From positions 1,054,001 through 1,118,000 of the forward strand of contig NZ_LT906438.1 of assembly GCF_900186955.1 (NCBI RefSeq): 64,000 nt of DNA. Direction: 5' to 3'. The stretch comes from Bacillus pumilus (GTDB lineage Bacteria; Bacillota; Bacilli; Bacillales; Bacillaceae). The notes beneath the pieces were generated by a model. It was not told where the DNA came from. It saw only the letters and a list, made by a program, of their open reading frames with translations, and ran no database searches. The translations under genes and the position numbers were made by a program. How positions within the stretch are numbered: the stretch's first letter is position 1; each line of letters begins with the position of its first letter. This document shows positions 49,606-56,900 of the stretch, piece by piece.

Positions 49606-50929
49606 TGTAGTGGATGTAATAGGGATCGGCATTGGCCCGTTTAACTTAGGACTTGCCGCATTATCTGAAGAGGTAAATGAAATTGACGCTTTGTTTTTTG
49701 AAAGAAGTGAAGCCTTTCATTGGCACCCAGGGATGCTCATTGAGGGGACGACACTGCAAGTTCCCTTTTTAGCGGACCTTGTCAGTATGGCAGATGTGAA
49801 AAGTAAATATAGCTTTCTTAACTATTTACAGGAACAAAATCGTTTGTATTCATTTTACTTTCTAGAAGATTTTCATATCCCGCGCAAGGAATATAGTCAT
49901 TATTGCCGCTGGGTCGCAGACCAGTTAGACTCTTGCCGATTTGGCATGAACGTCGAATCTGTCTCATTGATCGAGAAAGCAGGAGAAAAGCGATATGAAG
50001 TGCATGTGCGTCATGTGAAAGACCAAACGGTAGAGGTGTTTGAAAGTAAGCATCTCGTCTTAGGGATTGGTACACAGCCGGCGATACCAGCATCGCTCCA
50101 GCCAGCTTTAGGAGAGAAAGTTTTTCATTCTGCTGACTATTTAAAACGAAAGAAAGAAGGCTGTTTCAAAGGGAAATCTGTGACAGTGATCGGCTCTGGT
50201 CAAAGTGCGGCAGAAGTGTTCTATGATATTTTATCAGATGATGAGGCGAAGGATATTCACTGGTTCACACGCTCTAAAGGATTTTTCCCAATGGAATATT
50301 CAAACCTTGGTCTTGAATATTTCTCTCCAGATTATATTGATTTCTTTTATGAGCTTCCGCAAACAAAAAAGGATGCGTTGTTAAAGCAGCAAGATTTGCT
50401 GTATAAGGGCATCAGCTCTGCAATGATCCGTGATATTTATCATTTGCTTTATGAACGTTCTGCCTGCGGAGAGCAGTTGAACACAGTGCTTCAAGCAATG
50501 ACGGAGGTCAACTTGATTGAGGAAACAGCTCGCGGCTTGTCCCTTTCATGCACGCAATGGGTCAAAGAGGACACCTTTACCCACGAGACAGATATTGTCG
50601 TACTGGCGACGGGCTATCAATCGGTACTGCCCCCGTTTATCAATCCAATTTCTCATCACATTCAATGGGACGATCAAGGACGGTTCCAAGTCGAACGTGA
50701 ATATCGCTTAAAAACGAATACAATGGGTGAAAATGATATTTTTGTCCAAAATGCAGAGCTTCATACACATGGGGTTGGCGCTCCAGATTTAGGACTTGGC
50801 GCTTACCGAAACAGTGTGATTATCAATGAACTTGCTCGTCAAACCGTGTATCCACTTTATCAAAAGCACGTCTTCCAGACATTTGGTACACATAAGAACG
50901 TCAACACATTTGAAGAAATCAAAGGTTAA
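49580..50929 (+). CDS. rhbE: Diaminopropane N-monooxygenase (RhbE/IucD-like)
   Basis: 449-residue flavin monooxygenase of the lysine/ornithine N-hydroxylase family. FAD motif 'VIGIGIGPFNLGLAALS', substrate region 'FHWHPGMLIEGTTLQVPFLADLV', NADPH motif 'VTVIGSGQSAAEVFYDIL' and 'DIVVLATGYQSVLPP'. It hydroxylates one amino group of 1,3-diaminopropane. ATG 49580 with GAAAGGATG; the upstream extension to 49547 is in the rhbD coding region and unlikely. Confidence 0.92.
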   Translation: MTRFNKQNDVVDVIGIGIGPFNLGLAALSEEVNEIDALFFERSEAFHWHPGMLIEGTTLQVPFLADLVSMADVKSKYSFLNYLQEQNRLYSFYFLEDFHIPRKEYSHYCRWVADQLDSCRFGMNVESVSLIEKAGEKRYEVHVRHVKDQTVEVFESKHLVLGIGTQPAIPASLQPALGEKVFHSADYLKRKKEGCFKGKSVTVIGSGQSAAEVFYDILSDDEAKDIHWFTRSKGFFPMEYSNLGLEYFSPDYIDFFYELPQTKKDALLKQQDLLYKGISSAMIRDIYHLLYERSACGEQLNTVLQAMTEVNLIEETARGLSLSCTQWVKEDTFTHETDIVVLATGYQSVLPPFINPISHHIQWDDQGRFQVEREYRLKTNTMGENDIFVQNAELHTHGVGAPDLGLGAYRNSVIINELARQTVYPLYQKHVFQTFGTHKNVNTFEEIKG

Positions 50930-50942
50930 GGAGGATGAAGCG

Positions 50943-52757
50943 ATGAGTGTACAAGATGAATTGAAAAAAGCGGTGAATCCGGCTGCTTGGAAAAAGGCAA
51001 ACCAGCGAATGGTGGCAAAAATGCTGTCTGAATACATGTATGAGGATATGCTTCATCCCGTGCAGCTAGATCATAAGGATGGCATTGCTCAGTATGAATT
51101 AATCATTCACGAACATAAGAAATATCGCTATCTTGCAAAACCTCGTTTGTTTGATAGTTTTGATACAATTGCTGAATCAATCGAGTGCTGTCAAGACGGA
51201 AAATGGTCAAAGGATGTCAGTGCCATTGTGTTTTTACTAGACATTCAGCCGCTCATTCCAATGTCTTCTGACACAACAGGACACCTTATAAAAGAGCTTC
51301 ATCACACCCTGTTAGCAGATGTACATTTGCTGTCGAAAAAAGCACTTCGTGCGGATGAACTGACAGATACTGATTATGCATGGATTGAAGGAGAAATGAC
51401 AGGCCATCCTTGGATTGTGTATAACAAAGGACGCATTGGGTTCAGTTATGATGACTACCTAGCCTATGCACCTGAAAGGCAAGAAAGTGTGCAGCTGTCT
51501 TGGATTGCTGTTCACCGGGACCTTGCGACATTCCATGCAGTCGATCATGAAAACTATGAGCAGGTAATTGCCAAAGAGTTAGATGAAGTCACGATCCGTC
51601 AATTTCACCGCGTGCTAAAGGATGAAGGATTGATTGCAGCTGATTATTATTTGATGCCTGTTCATAAATGGCAGTGGACACATATGATTATTCAGCATTT
51701 CCCAGAAGATTTGGCGTTGCGCCGGATTGTGTATGTAGGAGAGGGACTGGATCAATATATCCCGCAGCAGTCGATCAGAACCTTTACGAACATCTCAAAT
51801 AAAGGCAAGCATCATATTAAACTGCCAATGAGCATTTTAAATACACTCGTGTACCGAGGACTTCCGTCAGAACGGACAGTCATTGCCCCTCGCATTACAG
51901 CACATATTAAAGGGATCGCGGATCAAGATTCATTTTTATCTGATGTCTGCCGCGTGATATTACCTGGTGAGAATGCAAGTATTAATGTCGATCATCCTTA
52001 CTATAGCAAACTGCCTGGTGCGCCGTATCAATATCTTGAAATGCTCGGTGTGATTTTTAGAGAAAGCATTTACTCGTACTTAGATGAAGGAGAGACCCCT
52101 GTTACACTTGCGGCACTCACCTATGAGGATCATGAAGGTGAGCCATATGTGAAACAGCTGATTGAAAAATCAGGTCTCTCAGCTAAAGAGTGGATGGCGA
52201 AATTTTTCCATGTGGTCATGCCGCCGCTGCTGCATTTTATGTATCAATACGGCACCGTCTTTTCACCGCACGGACAAAATACGATTCTTGTGTTAAAAGA
52301 TCATCAGCCTCATCGTTTGGCGATCAAAGATTTCGTTGACGATGTGAACATTAGTGATCAGCCGCTGCCTGAATTGGCTTCTTTAGGAGACGATTTAAAA
52401 GAAGTACTGCGGAGTGAACCGCCGGAAGGCTTAGTGCAGTTTATCTTTACAGGATTGTTTATTTGTAACCTGCGTTACGTATCAAATGTGTTAGACAATC
52501 ATCAGCTGTTAGATGAAGCGACACTTTGGCGCTTGCTTGCCGAAGAAATTCAGCAGTATCAAAAGCAATTCCCACAGCTGAAGGATCGTTTTGAACTATT
52601 TGATCTCTTCCAGCCGAAGCTGACAAAGCTGTGCTTAAATCGTAATCGAATGATTGATTATGGGTATGGAGATGGAGATGACCGCCCGCATGCATCAGAG
52701 CATGGAAAGGTCACAAATGCTCTCGCGCATGTGCTTTCGTCCGCCTGTGAGAAGTAA
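50943..52757 (+). CDS. rhbF: NIS siderophore synthetase, IucA/IucC family (RhbF-like)
   Basis: 604 residues. 'YYLMPVHKWQWTHMIIQHFPED', 'RTFTNISNKGKHHIKLPMSILNTLVYRGLPSERT', 'TVFSPHGQNTILVLKDHQPHRLAIKDFVDDVN' are the ATP/citrate-site motifs. Second condensing enzyme, expected to complete the citrate bis-amide. ATG 50943 after AAGGAGGATG; the 39 codons in frame upstream overlap rhbE and are not used. Last gene of the operon; no siderophore exporter, receptor or lipid-tailoring gene follows. Confidence 0.92.
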   Translation: MSVQDELKKAVNPAAWKKANQRMVAKMLSEYMYEDMLHPVQLDHKDGIAQYELIIHEHKKYRYLAKPRLFDSFDTIAESIECCQDGKWSKDVSAIVFLLDIQPLIPMSSDTTGHLIKELHHTLLADVHLLSKKALRADELTDTDYAWIEGEMTGHPWIVYNKGRIGFSYDDYLAYAPERQESVQLSWIAVHRDLATFHAVDHENYEQVIAKELDEVTIRQFHRVLKDEGLIAADYYLMPVHKWQWTHMIIQHFPEDLALRRIVYVGEGLDQYIPQQSIRTFTNISNKGKHHIKLPMSILNTLVYRGLPSERTVIAPRITAHIKGIADQDSFLSDVCRVILPGENASINVDHPYYSKLPGAPYQYLEMLGVIFRESIYSYLDEGETPVTLAALTYEDHEGEPYVKQLIEKSGLSAKEWMAKFFHVVMPPLLHFMYQYGTVFSPHGQNTILVLKDHQPHRLAIKDFVDDVNISDQPLPELASLGDDLKEVLRSEPPEGLVQFIFTGLFICNLRYVSNVLDNHQLLDEATLWRLLAEEIQQYQKQFPQLKDRFELFDLFQPKLTKLCLNRNRMIDYGYGDGDDRPHASEHGKVTNALAHVLSSACEK

Positions 52758-52762
52758 TAGAA

Positions 52763-52790
52763 AAGCTGTAGACATCAAGTGTCTACAGCT
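52763..52790. repeat. 28-bp direct repeat, left copy (terminator hairpin)
   Basis: Contains a perfect 11-bp stem (AGCTGTAGACA / TGTCTACAGCT) with a 5-nt loop, identical to 52966-52993. On the minus strand it is followed by TTTTC, so it can end transcription from yitH; on the plus strand there is no T run. Confidence 0.95.
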
Positions 52791-52965
52791 CAGCGTGTAG
52801 ACAAACCCTCGCATTCTTTGTCAGTCCTGTGCGCTGGTGCTCACGAATTGCAAATTCGCTCCGCGCCAGTGCTCGGCCTTCCTAGACTTCAAAGGTTTTC
52901 AATCACGCTGAAAAGAAGACAAAGGGCTAAAATAAAGATCATTTTAGCCCTTTGTCAACAATCTG
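52791..52965. mobile_element. 175-bp MITE-like inserted element
   Basis: Segment lying exactly between two identical 28-bp repeats. Its ends are imperfect terminal inverted repeats: CAGCGTGTAGACAAA (52791-52805) against CAGATTGTTGACAAA (reverse complement of 52951-52965), 12 of 15 matching. Inside it is strongly structured: CGAATT-GCA-AATTCG nested in a GCGCTGG/CCAGTGC stem, a TCAGCGTG/CACGCTGA pair (52790-52797 and 52904-52911), and a perfect 13-bp hairpin at 52921-52953. No open frame of useful length. Non-autonomous mobile element is the simplest reading; a structured RNA is an alternative. Confidence 0.6.
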
Positions 52966-53004
52966 AAGCTGTAGACATCAAGTGTCTACAGCTTTTTATA
53001 TTTT
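52966..53004 (+). terminator. 28-bp repeat, right copy, with T tract: rhb operon terminator
   Basis: Same 28 bp as 52763-52790 but followed by TTTTTATATTTT, making a functional rho-independent terminator in the plus direction. Confidence 0.88.
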
Positions 53005-53860
53005 ACGAAAATGCTTGAGAGGCAAGGAAATAAAGAAGGGCGGGATCGTTCAGCTTTTCTTTTCCGCGAATCATCATAAAATGAGCTTTGTTTGTTTTCG
53101 TAAAACCTGCTTCAACAAGTGATTCATGGAGGCGCTCAGCTGTTTCCTCCTGCATATCTAAACGAATCGGACCCGAATAAGACGAAATGAGCGAACGAAT
53201 CAGCGAGAGAGCTGTAAGTTCATCATTTGCTGTAAGCGGACCAATCATTAAATTGGCAGGTGTTTCAACGCCAAACGCAAAGCCAGTTGTGTCGTGATGT
53301 TCATTTTGTGCAATGATACGCCGTGCTGCTCGGTTCATCCGGTTTTTTATAAAGCTTGATCGATTTGTGCCTGCGCCTTTTTCATCTAGTGCTTCAATAC
53401 ACGGAAGGTGCGATTCATCGGCAGGAGACAGGTGGATGTCATCTGACACACGAAGCGCTTCTGGGTTTGGGTTTTGCGCTTTGTAAGTCGTAATGTAACC
53501 AGCCGTGTGAAACCCGATTTTTTCGTAAACTGGCCGCCCTTGGACAGTAGCGGTTAAAACGACAGGAATGCTTTGATCACATTGATCTAGCAGGGTGTCA
53601 ATCATTTTCCTTGCAAGACCTAAGCCGCGATGTGTCTCAGATACAATGACAGCACCAATTGACGCCATTCGATCATATTGGAAAAGTCCTGCACATGAGA
53701 TGACTTGTCCATCCGCTGTTGAAAAACCTGTGAAATATCCATTTGTTAAAAGAGATGTGAGCTCTTCCGCATTGTAATCAGGCCAGTCTACCTCTTGAGA
53801 CAATGCGATAAGATCTGGTATGTCATCGAGTGTTAATGCTCGTTGAACAACGTTTGTCAT
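53003..53860 (-). CDS. yitH: N-acetyltransferase YitH
   Basis: 285 residues. The N-terminal GNAT domain has 'IGAVIVSETHRGLGLARKMIDTLLDQ', the acetyl-CoA loop. A C-terminal domain contains 'GFAFGVETPANLMIGPLTANDELTALSLIRSLISSYSGPIRLDMQEE', the DUF-type second half seen in YitH-like proteins. The substrate is unknown. ATG 53860 after AAGGAGT. It lies before yitJ as in B. subtilis, where it is about 282 residues. Confidence 0.85.
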   Translation of the reverse strand: MTNVVQRALTLDDIPDLIALSQEVDWPDYNAEELTSLLTNGYFTGFSTADGQVISCAGLFQYDRMASIGAVIVSETHRGLGLARKMIDTLLDQCDQSIPVVLTATVQGRPVYEKIGFHTAGYITTYKAQNPNPEALRVSDDIHLSPADESHLPCIEALDEKGAGTNRSSFIKNRMNRAARRIIAQNEHHDTTGFAFGVETPANLMIGPLTANDELTALSLIRSLISSYSGPIRLDMQEETAERLHESLVEAGFTKTNKAHFMMIRGKEKLNDPALLYFLASQAFS

Positions 53861-53945
53861 GACGCGCAACTCCTTCTTAGCTGAATTCATCTATGTGTAT
53901 CGTACCATAAGAAGGTATAGTGTAAAGTTTATCTAATTTTCCCAG

Positions 53946-53975
53946 CAAAAAAGAACCTCCAGTTTCGGAGGTTCT
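53946..53975 (-). terminator. Terminator of yitJ-metH
   Basis: AGAACCTCC/GGAGGTTCT stem with 6-nt loop; six T follow on the minus strand. Confidence 0.92.
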
Positions 53976-53978
53976 GCA

Positions 53979-56900
53979 TTAATGAACATTAAAATATCGA
54001 GCTTCAGGATGAGAAACGACGATCGCTGAAACAGATGCTTCAGGTTCCATCATAAATCCTTCTGTTAGATGGATGCCGATTTTTTCAGGCTGAAGCAGCT
54101 TGAACAGCTTTTCTTGGTCTTCAAGATTTGGACAGGCGGGATAACCAAAGGAATAGCGCTGCCCTTGATATTTCGCTTGGAATCGTTTTTCCATTGTGAA
54201 ATCGACTGGGTCAGGAAAGCCCCATTTGTCACGAATCACTTGGTGGGTTCTTTCGGCTAATCCTTCTGCAAGCTCAAGCGCAAGAGCTTGAACTGCATGC
54301 ATTTTTAAATAATCTCCTTCTTGCTTAAAGTGCTGTGCGACTTCACGTATACGCGCTCCGGCTGTGACGGCAAATAAGGCAATATAATCTTTCTCCCTTT
54401 CACCGCTTCCCCGCACATAATCAGAAATGGAGCGGTACGGAAGCTTCTCCTGTCTTGGAAATTGGAATGTTTCAATGATACGGTCAGGCGCTTCGGGATC
54501 ATAAATATGCAGATCATTTCCGTTTGAACTAGCAGGATAAAATTGATAAACAAATGCAGGGGCAAACCAGTTTTTCTCTCTGCCTTCGTTTAGAAGGTCT
54601 GTGACAAGCTGCTTTAATTCCAATGCTTTTGGATGCTGCTGCGCTAACAATGTTTTGACCTTTCCTTTTAACCCAAGGTGGTGGCCAATGAGCATTTGTT
54701 CATTTACATAAGGCATAATATGATGCAGGTCGATGTCCCTTACATAATGACGTGCCGTATTTTCTGGCGTGAAAATAGGTGCATCAGGGAGTGCCGCACG
54801 TTTTTCTAGTAATTCAATGACAGCTTGTGGCTGCTTTGTTTCTTTCTTTTTGAAAGGTGCCACAGGCTCTTCGTCGGGCTTAATTTGAAACTGAAGAGGA
54901 TTTGCTTTTAACTCATTGGCTAAAGATAAGCCGTCCATCGCATCTTTTGCGTAAAGAACCGGTCCGTCATAATGAGGCGAAATCTTCATTTTCGTAAATT
55001 TCCGAGAAAGTGCAGCGCCACCGACCAAAATGGGCACGGAAATATTCGCCTTTTGTAAATCCTGAGCGGTGAGTACCATTTGCTGGGCTGACTTCACAAG
55101 CAATCCTGATAATCCAATCATATCTGGCTTTTCCTTTTGCACAGCTTCGATCAATGTTTGTGGTGTCACCTTGATCCCGAGATCGACCACTTGAAAGCCG
55201 TTATTACTCAAAATGATGTCGACAAGGTTTTTTCCAATATCATGGACATCTCCTTTTACAGTGGCAAGTAGAATCTTACCTTTTCCGTTTGCATGCTGCT
55301 TTTCCATATATTGCTCGAGATACGATACAGATGCCTTCATGACCTCTGCCGATTGAAGCACTTCCGCCACAATCAGTTCGTTTTGATTGAAAAGACGTCC
55401 AACCTCAGCCATTCCCTGCATTAACGGACCATTGATGATATGAAGTGGTGATTCAAATTGCTCTAGAGCAAGGGATAAATCATCGATAAGTCCTTCTTTT
55501 GTTCCTTCGACGACGTAGAGTGCTAGCCTTTCATCAAGTGATAAGGAGACCTTTGGTTTTTTCTCCGTTTTCTTTTTGCCTCGGTAAAATTGGGTGAATT
55601 CAGCAAGGGTTTGATCATTTGTTTCATAGAGCAGTGTTTCAGCCAGCTTAATTTCTTCCTTTGGAATGGAAGCGAAGCGTTCAAGCTTTTCTGTATTCAC
55701 GATGGCGTAATCAAGTCCTGCTTGGACGCAGTGATACAAGTAGACGGCATTCAAAATTTCTCTCCCAAGAGGCGGGAGTCCAAAAGACACGTTGCTGATG
55801 CCTAAAATCGTCAAGCACTCAGGCAGGTTTTCCTTGATCATTTTGATGCCTTTGATCGTTTCTTCGGCAGCGCCAATATACTGCTCGTCTCCAGTGCCTA
55901 CTGGAAAGACAAGTGGATCAAAAATGATGTCACTTGCGGGAATGCCATATTTCTTCGTTAATAGATCATGAGAGCGTACGGCAATCTCCAGCTTTCGTTC
56001 TGCTGTTACAGCCATCCCTGTTTCATCGATCGTGCCGACAACAAGTGCACCGCCGTATAGCTTCACAAGTGGAAGAATTTCTTCGAAGCGTTCTTCGCCA
56101 TCCTCAAGGTTAATGGAATTGATGATGGCTTTCCCTTGGGAATATGTGAGCGCTTTTTCGATCACGTGTTTATCCGTTGAATCAATGACAAAAGGGGCTT
56201 TGACTTTTTTCATAGCCTCTTGTAAAAAGCCTTCCATGTCAGCCGCCTCCTCGCGATCTGGATCAGCGAGACACACATCAATCACGTGAGCGCCGTTTTT
56301 TACCTGTGCACGAGCAATTTCTGATGCTTCTTCAAACTTTTGTTCCGCAATGAGTCGTTTGAATTTGCGTGAACCAATCACGTTGGTTCGTTCTCCTACA
56401 AAAAGAGGGCGCATTGACTCCTCATATATCAGAGGCTCAATTCCTGAGACGGTATGCTGAGACGATTCATGCGCAATGTGACGCGGCTGAATCGTTCGTA
56501 CTTCATCTGACAATGCCTGTATATGTGCAGGTGTTGTTCCGCAGCAGCCGCCAACAATATTTAACCAGCCTTCCTTGGCAAAGGCGGAAATTTTTTTAGC
56601 AAGTGAAGCAGGGGATTCATGATATTGACCTTCTTCATCTGGTAGACCAGCATTTGGATAGCAGCTAACCGCTGACTTGGCGATGGAGGAGAGCGTGCGG
56701 ATATGGTCTGTCATGAATTCAGGACCCGTCGCACAGTTCAGGCCGACACTCATTGGTTTCATATGCTCAAGAGAGATATAAAAGGCTTCAATATCCTGAC
56801 CAGCGAGGGTAGTGCCCATCGGTTCAATCGTACCCGATACCATTAGAGGCAACTCAATACCTGTCTGCTGGAAGGCTTCCTGAATGCCTTTGAAACCAGC

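Follow-up and report, generated by a model that had tools for sequence, protein, structure and literature searches.

A 175-bp non-autonomous element with IS1182-type ends between duplicated terminator-like hairpins of Bacillus pumilus

Two copies of one hairpin on either side of a 175-bp sequence raise the question of how a single transcription terminator could have been split and doubled. The copies lie in a stretch of 64,000 nucleotides of Bacillus pumilus DNA (contig NZ_LT906438.1, positions 1,054,001 to 1,118,000), which as a whole is called the window here. A preliminary description of this DNA had noted, between a convergent operon and a gene that it labelled rhb and yitH, a hairpin-bearing 28-bp sequence in two copies 203 bp apart, A or T runs only on the outer flanks, and 175 bp between them with several stems and with ends matching at 12 of 15 positions. 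The arrangement was read as the insertion of a non-autonomous element with a 28-bp target duplication. These features were all seen again in the sequence, including a perfect 16-bp hairpin and other predicted stems inside the element, and the reading agrees with single-hairpin empty sites, 58 copies, and flanking hairpins that differ by copy. What is added here is the IS1182-type identity of the element and the centring of the duplication on the hairpin. The answer that we favour, with a probability of roughly 0.8, is that a non-autonomous element is moved in trans by an IS1182-family DDE transposase, most likely that of the type-1 insertion sequence (IS) of the genus, and that this enzyme targets rho-independent terminator hairpins.

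The element, its empty sites, and its other copies

In the window, the two 28-bp copies are identical (zero mismatches), start 203 bp apart, and each include an 11-bp stem (Table 1). The 9-mer CTGTAGACA from this repeat occurs four times in the window, and 0.24 occurrences would be expected. An A run is found only leftward of the left copy and a T run only rightward of the right copy. The element ends, CAGCGTGTAGACAAA and CAGATTGTTGACAAA, match at 12 of 15 positions. The list of open reading frames of the window contains a 79-aa ORF that spans the insertion site and is an open frame only.

Table 1. Positions in the window of the inserted element, its parts, and the flanking hairpins
Feature	Position	Strand	Remarks
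Left copy of target hairpin, 28 bp	52763..52790		Perfect direct repeat; single at orthologous empty sites; A run 52761-52764 at its left
175-bp MITE with IS1182-type ends	52791..52965	+	58 copies in the genome; in 35 of 44 genomes of the genus
Left terminal inverted repeat CAGCGTGTAGACAAACCC	52791..52808	+	Agrees with each type-1 IS end at 15 of 18 positions
Right terminal inverted repeat CAGATTGTTGACAAAGGG	52948..52965	-	Agrees with the type-1 IS at 14 of 18 positions (left end) and at 12 of 18 (right end)
Subterminal hairpin, perfect 16-bp stem, 7-nt loop	52918..52956		Compensatory changes (5 pairs altered on both sides)
Predicted left structured domain, closed by CAGCGTG / CACGCTG (52791-52797 with 52904-52910)	52791..52910	+	Fold prediction
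Right copy of target hairpin	52966..52993		Direct repeat; T run 52993-52997 after it

The DNA to the right of the insert was compared with 44 genomes of the genus. Of 17 matches, one (L156) was a 30-bp match elsewhere. A single hairpin without the element was found at 13 of the 16 orthologous sites, a count that applies to the window's locus only, and at one of the empty sites (L142 in genome G021) the identical 28 bp are present once. The single-hairpin sites proposed as a check in the preliminary description are thus found in other strains, and the same arrangement is not carried by all relatives. The three filled sites are the window itself, L144, and L147. In the latter two, the element has the same orientation as in the window and the flanking hairpin arms have been lost, apparently at TGTAGACA, which is common to the target hairpin and the element end. 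In L147, the element's own ends occupy the place of the terminator arms.

The element is present many times, as had been predicted. A 25-base end pattern with up to three mismatches matched at 59 places in the 3.86-Mb genome that contains the window, and 58 copies of at least 60 bp were detected there by blastn. L073 matched the end pattern and was no copy by blastn; L074, a blastn copy outside the end pattern, was left out of the repeat scan. A 23-base pattern found the element in 35 of the 44 genomes of the genus, with 58 matches in the window's genome and a maximum of 85 (G022), and the reversed pattern, as a control, gave 0 matches in all 44. By DNA similarity, matches were obtained in 38 of 80 genomes of the family, all 38 in one genus out of six. 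The named hosts among the at least 80 loci listed are B. pumilus, B. altitudinis, B. safensis, B. xiamenensis, B. zhangzhouensis, B. australimaris, B. stratosphericus, Bacillus sp. 28A-2, and B. spizizenii.

A direct repeat of 17-40 bp was found at the ends of 44 of the 57 scanned copies, and it was perfect in 27 of these. The other 13 have no direct repeat of at least 17 bp; several of them are truncated, diverged, or have the hairpin on one side only. The suggestion that copies might always be flanked by duplications therefore holds for 44 copies and fails for 13. Most repeat-flanked copies each lie in a different terminator-like hairpin. For stem statistics, one overlapping tandem row (L063) was dropped, which left 43 copies. 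A stem score (pairs minus mismatches) of at least 6 was reached by 39 of these 43 repeats, compared with 1.4% of 1720 control windows, which were length-matched windows of the flanks and presumably mostly genes. The stems are weak in four repeats (L018, L021, L050, and L067), and the 40-bp repeat of L016 consists of the hairpin and about 16 bp of flank. Outer T tracts accompany 33 of 42 copies and outer A tracts 25 of 42; on the inner sides, the counts are 0 of 42 for T and 2 of 42 for A.

Since hairpins stand on both sides in most copies, they might be carried by the element as its own part, and the repeat would then not be a target duplication. The preliminary description had named this as a condition that would speak against insertion. 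The hairpin sequence varies by copy, however, and the empty sites consist of one hairpin without an element, which leaves this reading with practically no credit. Such variation places the flanking hairpin outside the element. Comparison of these sequences establishes that positions 52791-52965 of the window are a 175-bp non-autonomous element (MITE) inserted in one predicted terminator hairpin and that the 28-bp hairpin on both of its sides is a target duplication. The element has the attributes of a MITE: it is short (175 bp), it is present in 58 copies, no ORF of transposase length lies inside it, its ends are inverted (12 of 15 positions), and a direct repeat of at least 17 bp flanks 44 of 57 copies. 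At L063 (G000:3376774-3377145), a tandem pair of MITEs was observed with near-identical copies of one terminator hairpin between and around them.

Across 48 aligned copies, the subterminal hairpin retains 16 pairs, five of which have changed on both sides. In the whole structure, 17 cells with both-side changes were counted versus 2.6 in shuffles, and all 17 are in the subterminal hairpin. The stems of the left domain are nearly invariant in the 48 copies; its arms CAGCGTG / CACGCTG are almost unchanged, so covariation neither supports nor refutes the closing stem. Group IIC introns insert beside terminator hairpins, and given the predicted structure of the element, a structured RNA or group IIC intron-like element settling at terminators might be considered. 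Such introns have intron RNA domains and are not known to leave a target duplication, whereas the inverted ends and the target duplication here fit DNA transposition, and the partner ISs encode DDE transposases. An Rfam search of window positions 50000-55000 gave no intron match. A group IIC intron is rejected on this result together with the target duplication, and the intron-like reading as a whole is hardly credible. A weak Rfam match to Phe_leader, below the cut-off, was seen at window positions 53946-54005 on the minus strand. It may be no more than the terminator hairpin of the adjacent 1142-aa gene, which we take to resemble metH.

Partner insertion sequences and the mobilising enzyme

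A search with PF05598 in the 44 genomes of the genus revealed two kinds of IS. The type-1 IS is 1503-1506 bp long and has the ends CAGCTTGTAGACAAAG and CAGACCGTAGACAAAC; the type-2 IS is 1544-1558 bp long, and its ends in the window's genome are CAGGCTGTCGAGAAAA and CAGATTGTAGAGAAAC. With NF033551, the NCBIfam model for IS1182, the transposases score 477 bits (type 1) and 485 bits (type 2) at a cut-off of 270, and they lie above both cut-offs for PF05598 and PF13751. The membership of both types in the IS1182 family is established, and the transposases are of the DDE type. Among solved structures, the type-1 transposase had no relative at E 0.01.

Some members of the IS1182 family target palindromes, and the ISs found here do so as well. 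From 32 fetched loci, 29 were scanned for repeats (L136-L138 were left out), and a clean direct repeat of 15-31 bp was present in 23 of the 29, comprising 6 type-1 and 17 type-2 loci. L139 is compound. Five of the 29 loci showed no repeat in the scan; L157 and L129 show one on inspection. At L135, L158, and L175, one IS end only is visible, beside a hairpin. One 1558-bp IS with five copies in genome G005 has repeats of 22, 25, 19, 27, and 20 bp. A search for a transposase that shares the ends of the MITE had also been proposed; full-length ISs that encode a transposase resemble it at their ends (CAG...GT.GA.AAA) and choose targets of the same kind.

Several arrangements among these loci deserve a description of their own. 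Near 1481-1484 kb of G020, two ISs, one of type 2 and one of type 1, stand head to head with one common 23-bp hairpin repeat (L129 / L106). The outer type-2 end resembles type-1 sequence, possibly by conversion, and the pair may form a composite unit. At L139 (G000:1970000-1973400), one terminator hairpin is present three times in the order hairpin, MITE, hairpin, type-2 IS, hairpin with a T run. Judged from this order, the predicted terminator has been struck twice, by a MITE and by a type-2 IS with an open frame. In both IS types (L128, L130-L134, and L159-L174), the left end itself forms a hairpin with a T-rich run after it, and this might keep outside transcription away from the transposase gene.

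We infer that the MITE is mobilised in trans by an IS1182-family transposase. The left end of the MITE shares 15 of 18 positions with each of the type-1 ends. Its right end shares 14 of 18 with the type-1 left end, and for the right end of a MITE from another genome group, this agreement rises to 17 of 18. At base 9 of the left end, 17 of 28 MITE copies have A and 11 have C. The type-1-like left ends have A at this base in five genomes (G019, G020, G021, G034, and G043), in which the MITE also has A. They have C in four genomes (G010, G012, G017, and G037), and the three of these with a MITE that were compared also have C there. In G010, the MITEs have mostly C at base 9 among the matches listed, and T occurs at this base in some MITE copies of C-group genomes. 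Type-2 ends read GAGAAA and the MITE reads GACAAA, the C of which is invariant in 48 aligned MITEs.

An intact type-1 IS or gene was not found in the window's genome; what it contains is fragments and one intact type-2 IS, whose 450-aa frame at G000:1971197 is open. A type-2 element might be proposed as the mobiliser in place of type 1. It is intact in this very genome, it has the same target habit, it shares one terminator with a MITE at L139, and its right end matches the MITE ends at 13-14 of 18 positions, which is hardly below type 1. The mismatch of GAGAAA with GACAAA, which is invariant in 48 copies, and the agreement of base 9 with type-1 ends speak against this proposal, and we regard it as rather unlikely. 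Because of these same two features, type 1 is the better candidate, and the end sequences make it the most likely mobiliser, although not a certain one. As the intact type-1 IS is absent from the window's genome, its action on the MITE is a matter of deduction. Comparison of the MITE with both ISs by blastn gave matches of at most 15 bp and no clear interior likeness beyond the ends; this lack of an interior match excludes the MITE as a plain internal deletion derivative of the IS.

Position of the duplication on the hairpin and a proposed mechanism

The NF033551 model was also used to search 120 genomes of the order, in which 30 loci were found, two of them from the genus. Among the 28 loci outside the genus, seven have both CAG-type ends (L314, L315, L317, L319, L320, L321, and L324) and L323 has one. 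A direct repeat of the hairpin, 22-42 bp long, is present in six of the seven two-ended loci; L324 has two different hairpins. Of the remaining 20 loci, five have GAG-type ends (one end only in L342), and no ends were found for most. Four GAG sites were rejoined and folded, and two of them (L340 and L343) show an 8-9 bp repeat in the apical part of the fold; those of L337 and L338 fold weakly. In a midpoint-rooted tree of 35 transposases, the 15 CAG-ended rows fall on one branch, with fork support of 99/96 and of 100/100 versus the GAG rows. The tree includes 15 rows with unknown ends, lacks L321, which gave no ORF, and came with a program warning of long branches meeting.

For the position of the repeat, the flanks were rejoined, the best stem was sought regardless of the repeat, and the difference between the two border offsets was taken as the measure. 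The sample consisted of 28 IS copies (23 from the genus and 5 from other genera; L314 is absent) and 43 MITE copies. As these were chosen by having a repeat, the figures give the position of the repeat and not the frequency of duplication. The IS repeats are centred on the dyad within 1 nt in 27 of 28 copies and within 2 nt in all 28, compared with 4.2% and 9.4% for a randomly slid window. The corresponding MITE values are 26 and 32 of 43, compared with 5.1% and 8.3%; 11 of the 43 MITE repeats are more than 2 nt off the dyad.

The G+C-bounded core of the stem starts and ends at most 3 nt from the repeat borders in 27 of the 28 IS copies. The exception, with 11 nt at both ends, is L320, judged by its 42-bp repeat. 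In nearly all IS copies, the repeat takes in the G+C-rich stem-loop and 0-3 further pairs. The stem pairs outside the repeat in the 28 IS copies are 100 A-T and 3 G-C; since the stem usually extends beyond the repeat in this way, what is duplicated is the core of the palindrome and not the whole. The length of the repeat correlates with the span of the G+C-bounded core (Spearman 0.78 for IS and 0.61 for MITE copies) and moderately with the span of the whole stem in an unconfined search (Pearson r = 0.58 and 0.36, respectively). An apparent equality of repeat length and hairpin span (r = 0.996, with 24 of 29 equal) was rejected as inflated, because the stem search had been confined to the repeat and the unconfined r is far lower. 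The rejoined sites thus show duplications that vary in length and are centred on the dyad of the hairpin.

The target duplications made by DDE transposases are mostly short and near-fixed in length. Here the repeats range from 15 to 42 bp across related ISs and from 19 to 27 bp within one IS, and they are centred on a hairpin, which points to the recognition of DNA structure. Insertions in genes would tend to be lost, which would bias the survivors towards intergenic places, and selection alone could therefore be held responsible if insertion with a variable stagger took place anywhere in linear DNA and those in terminators survived. Survival does not explain centring within 1 nt in 27 of 28 IS copies, and such an account is very improbable.

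In the mechanism that we propose, the palindrome would be extruded as a hairpin or cruciform whose stable G+C-rich stem has two 5' feet. Close to these, the transposase would attach the element by its 3' ends. The two feet would face each other across the junction at any arm length, which would explain how variable repeats can come from one enzyme. Gap repair would then copy the hairpin onto both sides, and each outer half would retain its A or T run. Transcription coming from left or right would run through the first hairpin and the element and stop at the far hairpin with its T run, so that termination is presumably preserved after insertion. If this is the case, an insertion costs the host little, and dozens of terminators can be filled. 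Alternatively, a transposase dimer could bind the palindrome as linear double-stranded DNA, without extrusion, and cut at the boundaries between the G+C stem and the A/T tracts. The repeat borders do lie near such boundaries in most copies, and the length of the repeat follows the full stem only loosely. However, repeats of 15 to 42 bp would, as far as can be judged, require one complex to bridge widely different distances, and attack on a cruciform is the model proposed for the related IS1272 in the available text of PMC5678879. Binding of the linear palindrome is thus unlikely.

Relation to known hairpin-targeting elements

In the portion of Wan et al. 2017 that was available (PMC5678879), three outcomes of attack on a cruciform are drawn: replacement, duplication of the whole hairpin (pathway b), and duplication of the loop (pathway c). 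Replacement is the outcome reported there for IS1272. The corresponding portion of Furi et al. 2016 (PMC4923244) describes TnSha1 as targeting hairpins, several of them confirmed terminators, with partial deletion, and in both articles Siguier et al. are cited for palindrome targeting by some IS1182 members. Judging by these excerpts, IS1272 and TnSha1 of staphylococci resemble the elements here in belonging to the IS1182 family and in using hairpin targets, terminators included, without sequence preference. They differ in removing all or part of the stem-loop without creating a target duplication, whereas the elements here duplicate the hairpin (PMC5678879, PMC4923244). Stem-loop replacement of the IS1272 type is excluded for the elements here by the hairpin on both of their sides. 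As pathway b is drawn in the text available, they fit it, with joining points near the feet of the G+C-rich stem. The GAG-ended elements L340 and L343 also insert in palindromes, but their 8-9 bp apical repeats are like pathway c in the same source (PMC5678879). Hairpin targeting by the IS1182 family is therefore already published for IS1272, with whole-hairpin duplication present in the accessible text only as a hypothetical pathway. In the CC-licensed PMC literature, as represented by such excerpts, no account was found of this MITE or of observed whole-hairpin duplication.

Other reports touch on the same family. The excerpt of PMC12056078 states that IS1182 members transpose with or without target duplication and may recognise sequence or structure. 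Duplication of a whole hairpin, as seen in the elements here, is not described in the available parts of PMC12056078 and PMC3281130, the second of which apparently gives a 4-bp repeat for ISPse1 of the IS1182 family. ISBpu1, an IS from Bacillus genomes, is counted with the IS1182 family in PMC10780176, the text of which, as far as available, contains nothing on hairpins. By its name it is a B. pumilus IS, perhaps identical to type 1 or type 2, a comparison made by description only. The SPRITE, RUP, and BOX sequences of pneumococcus are small non-coding interspersed repeats like the MITE, and SPRITE is terminator-like (PMC10969869); hairpin duplication, which marks the MITE, is not described for them in the excerpt, and the likeness is again one of description only.

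The balance of these comparisons leans slightly towards a broader reading, in which a clade of IS1182 transposases reads its target by fold. The strike would be symmetric about the dyad, near the 5' feet, and the target arm would set the cuts and the length of the duplication. A single family that reads structure would then have three outcomes, namely duplication of the hairpin, duplication of the loop, and replacement of the stem-loop, and the terminator MITEs, with up to about 85 per genome, would be near-harmless passengers. The copies described here are natural evidence, with dozens of examples per genome, for a pathway that had been drawn before only as a possibility, and they suggest how an element can occupy terminators and yet leave them functional. 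Many 3' untranslated regions in the B. pumilus group may carry the 175-bp structured insert.
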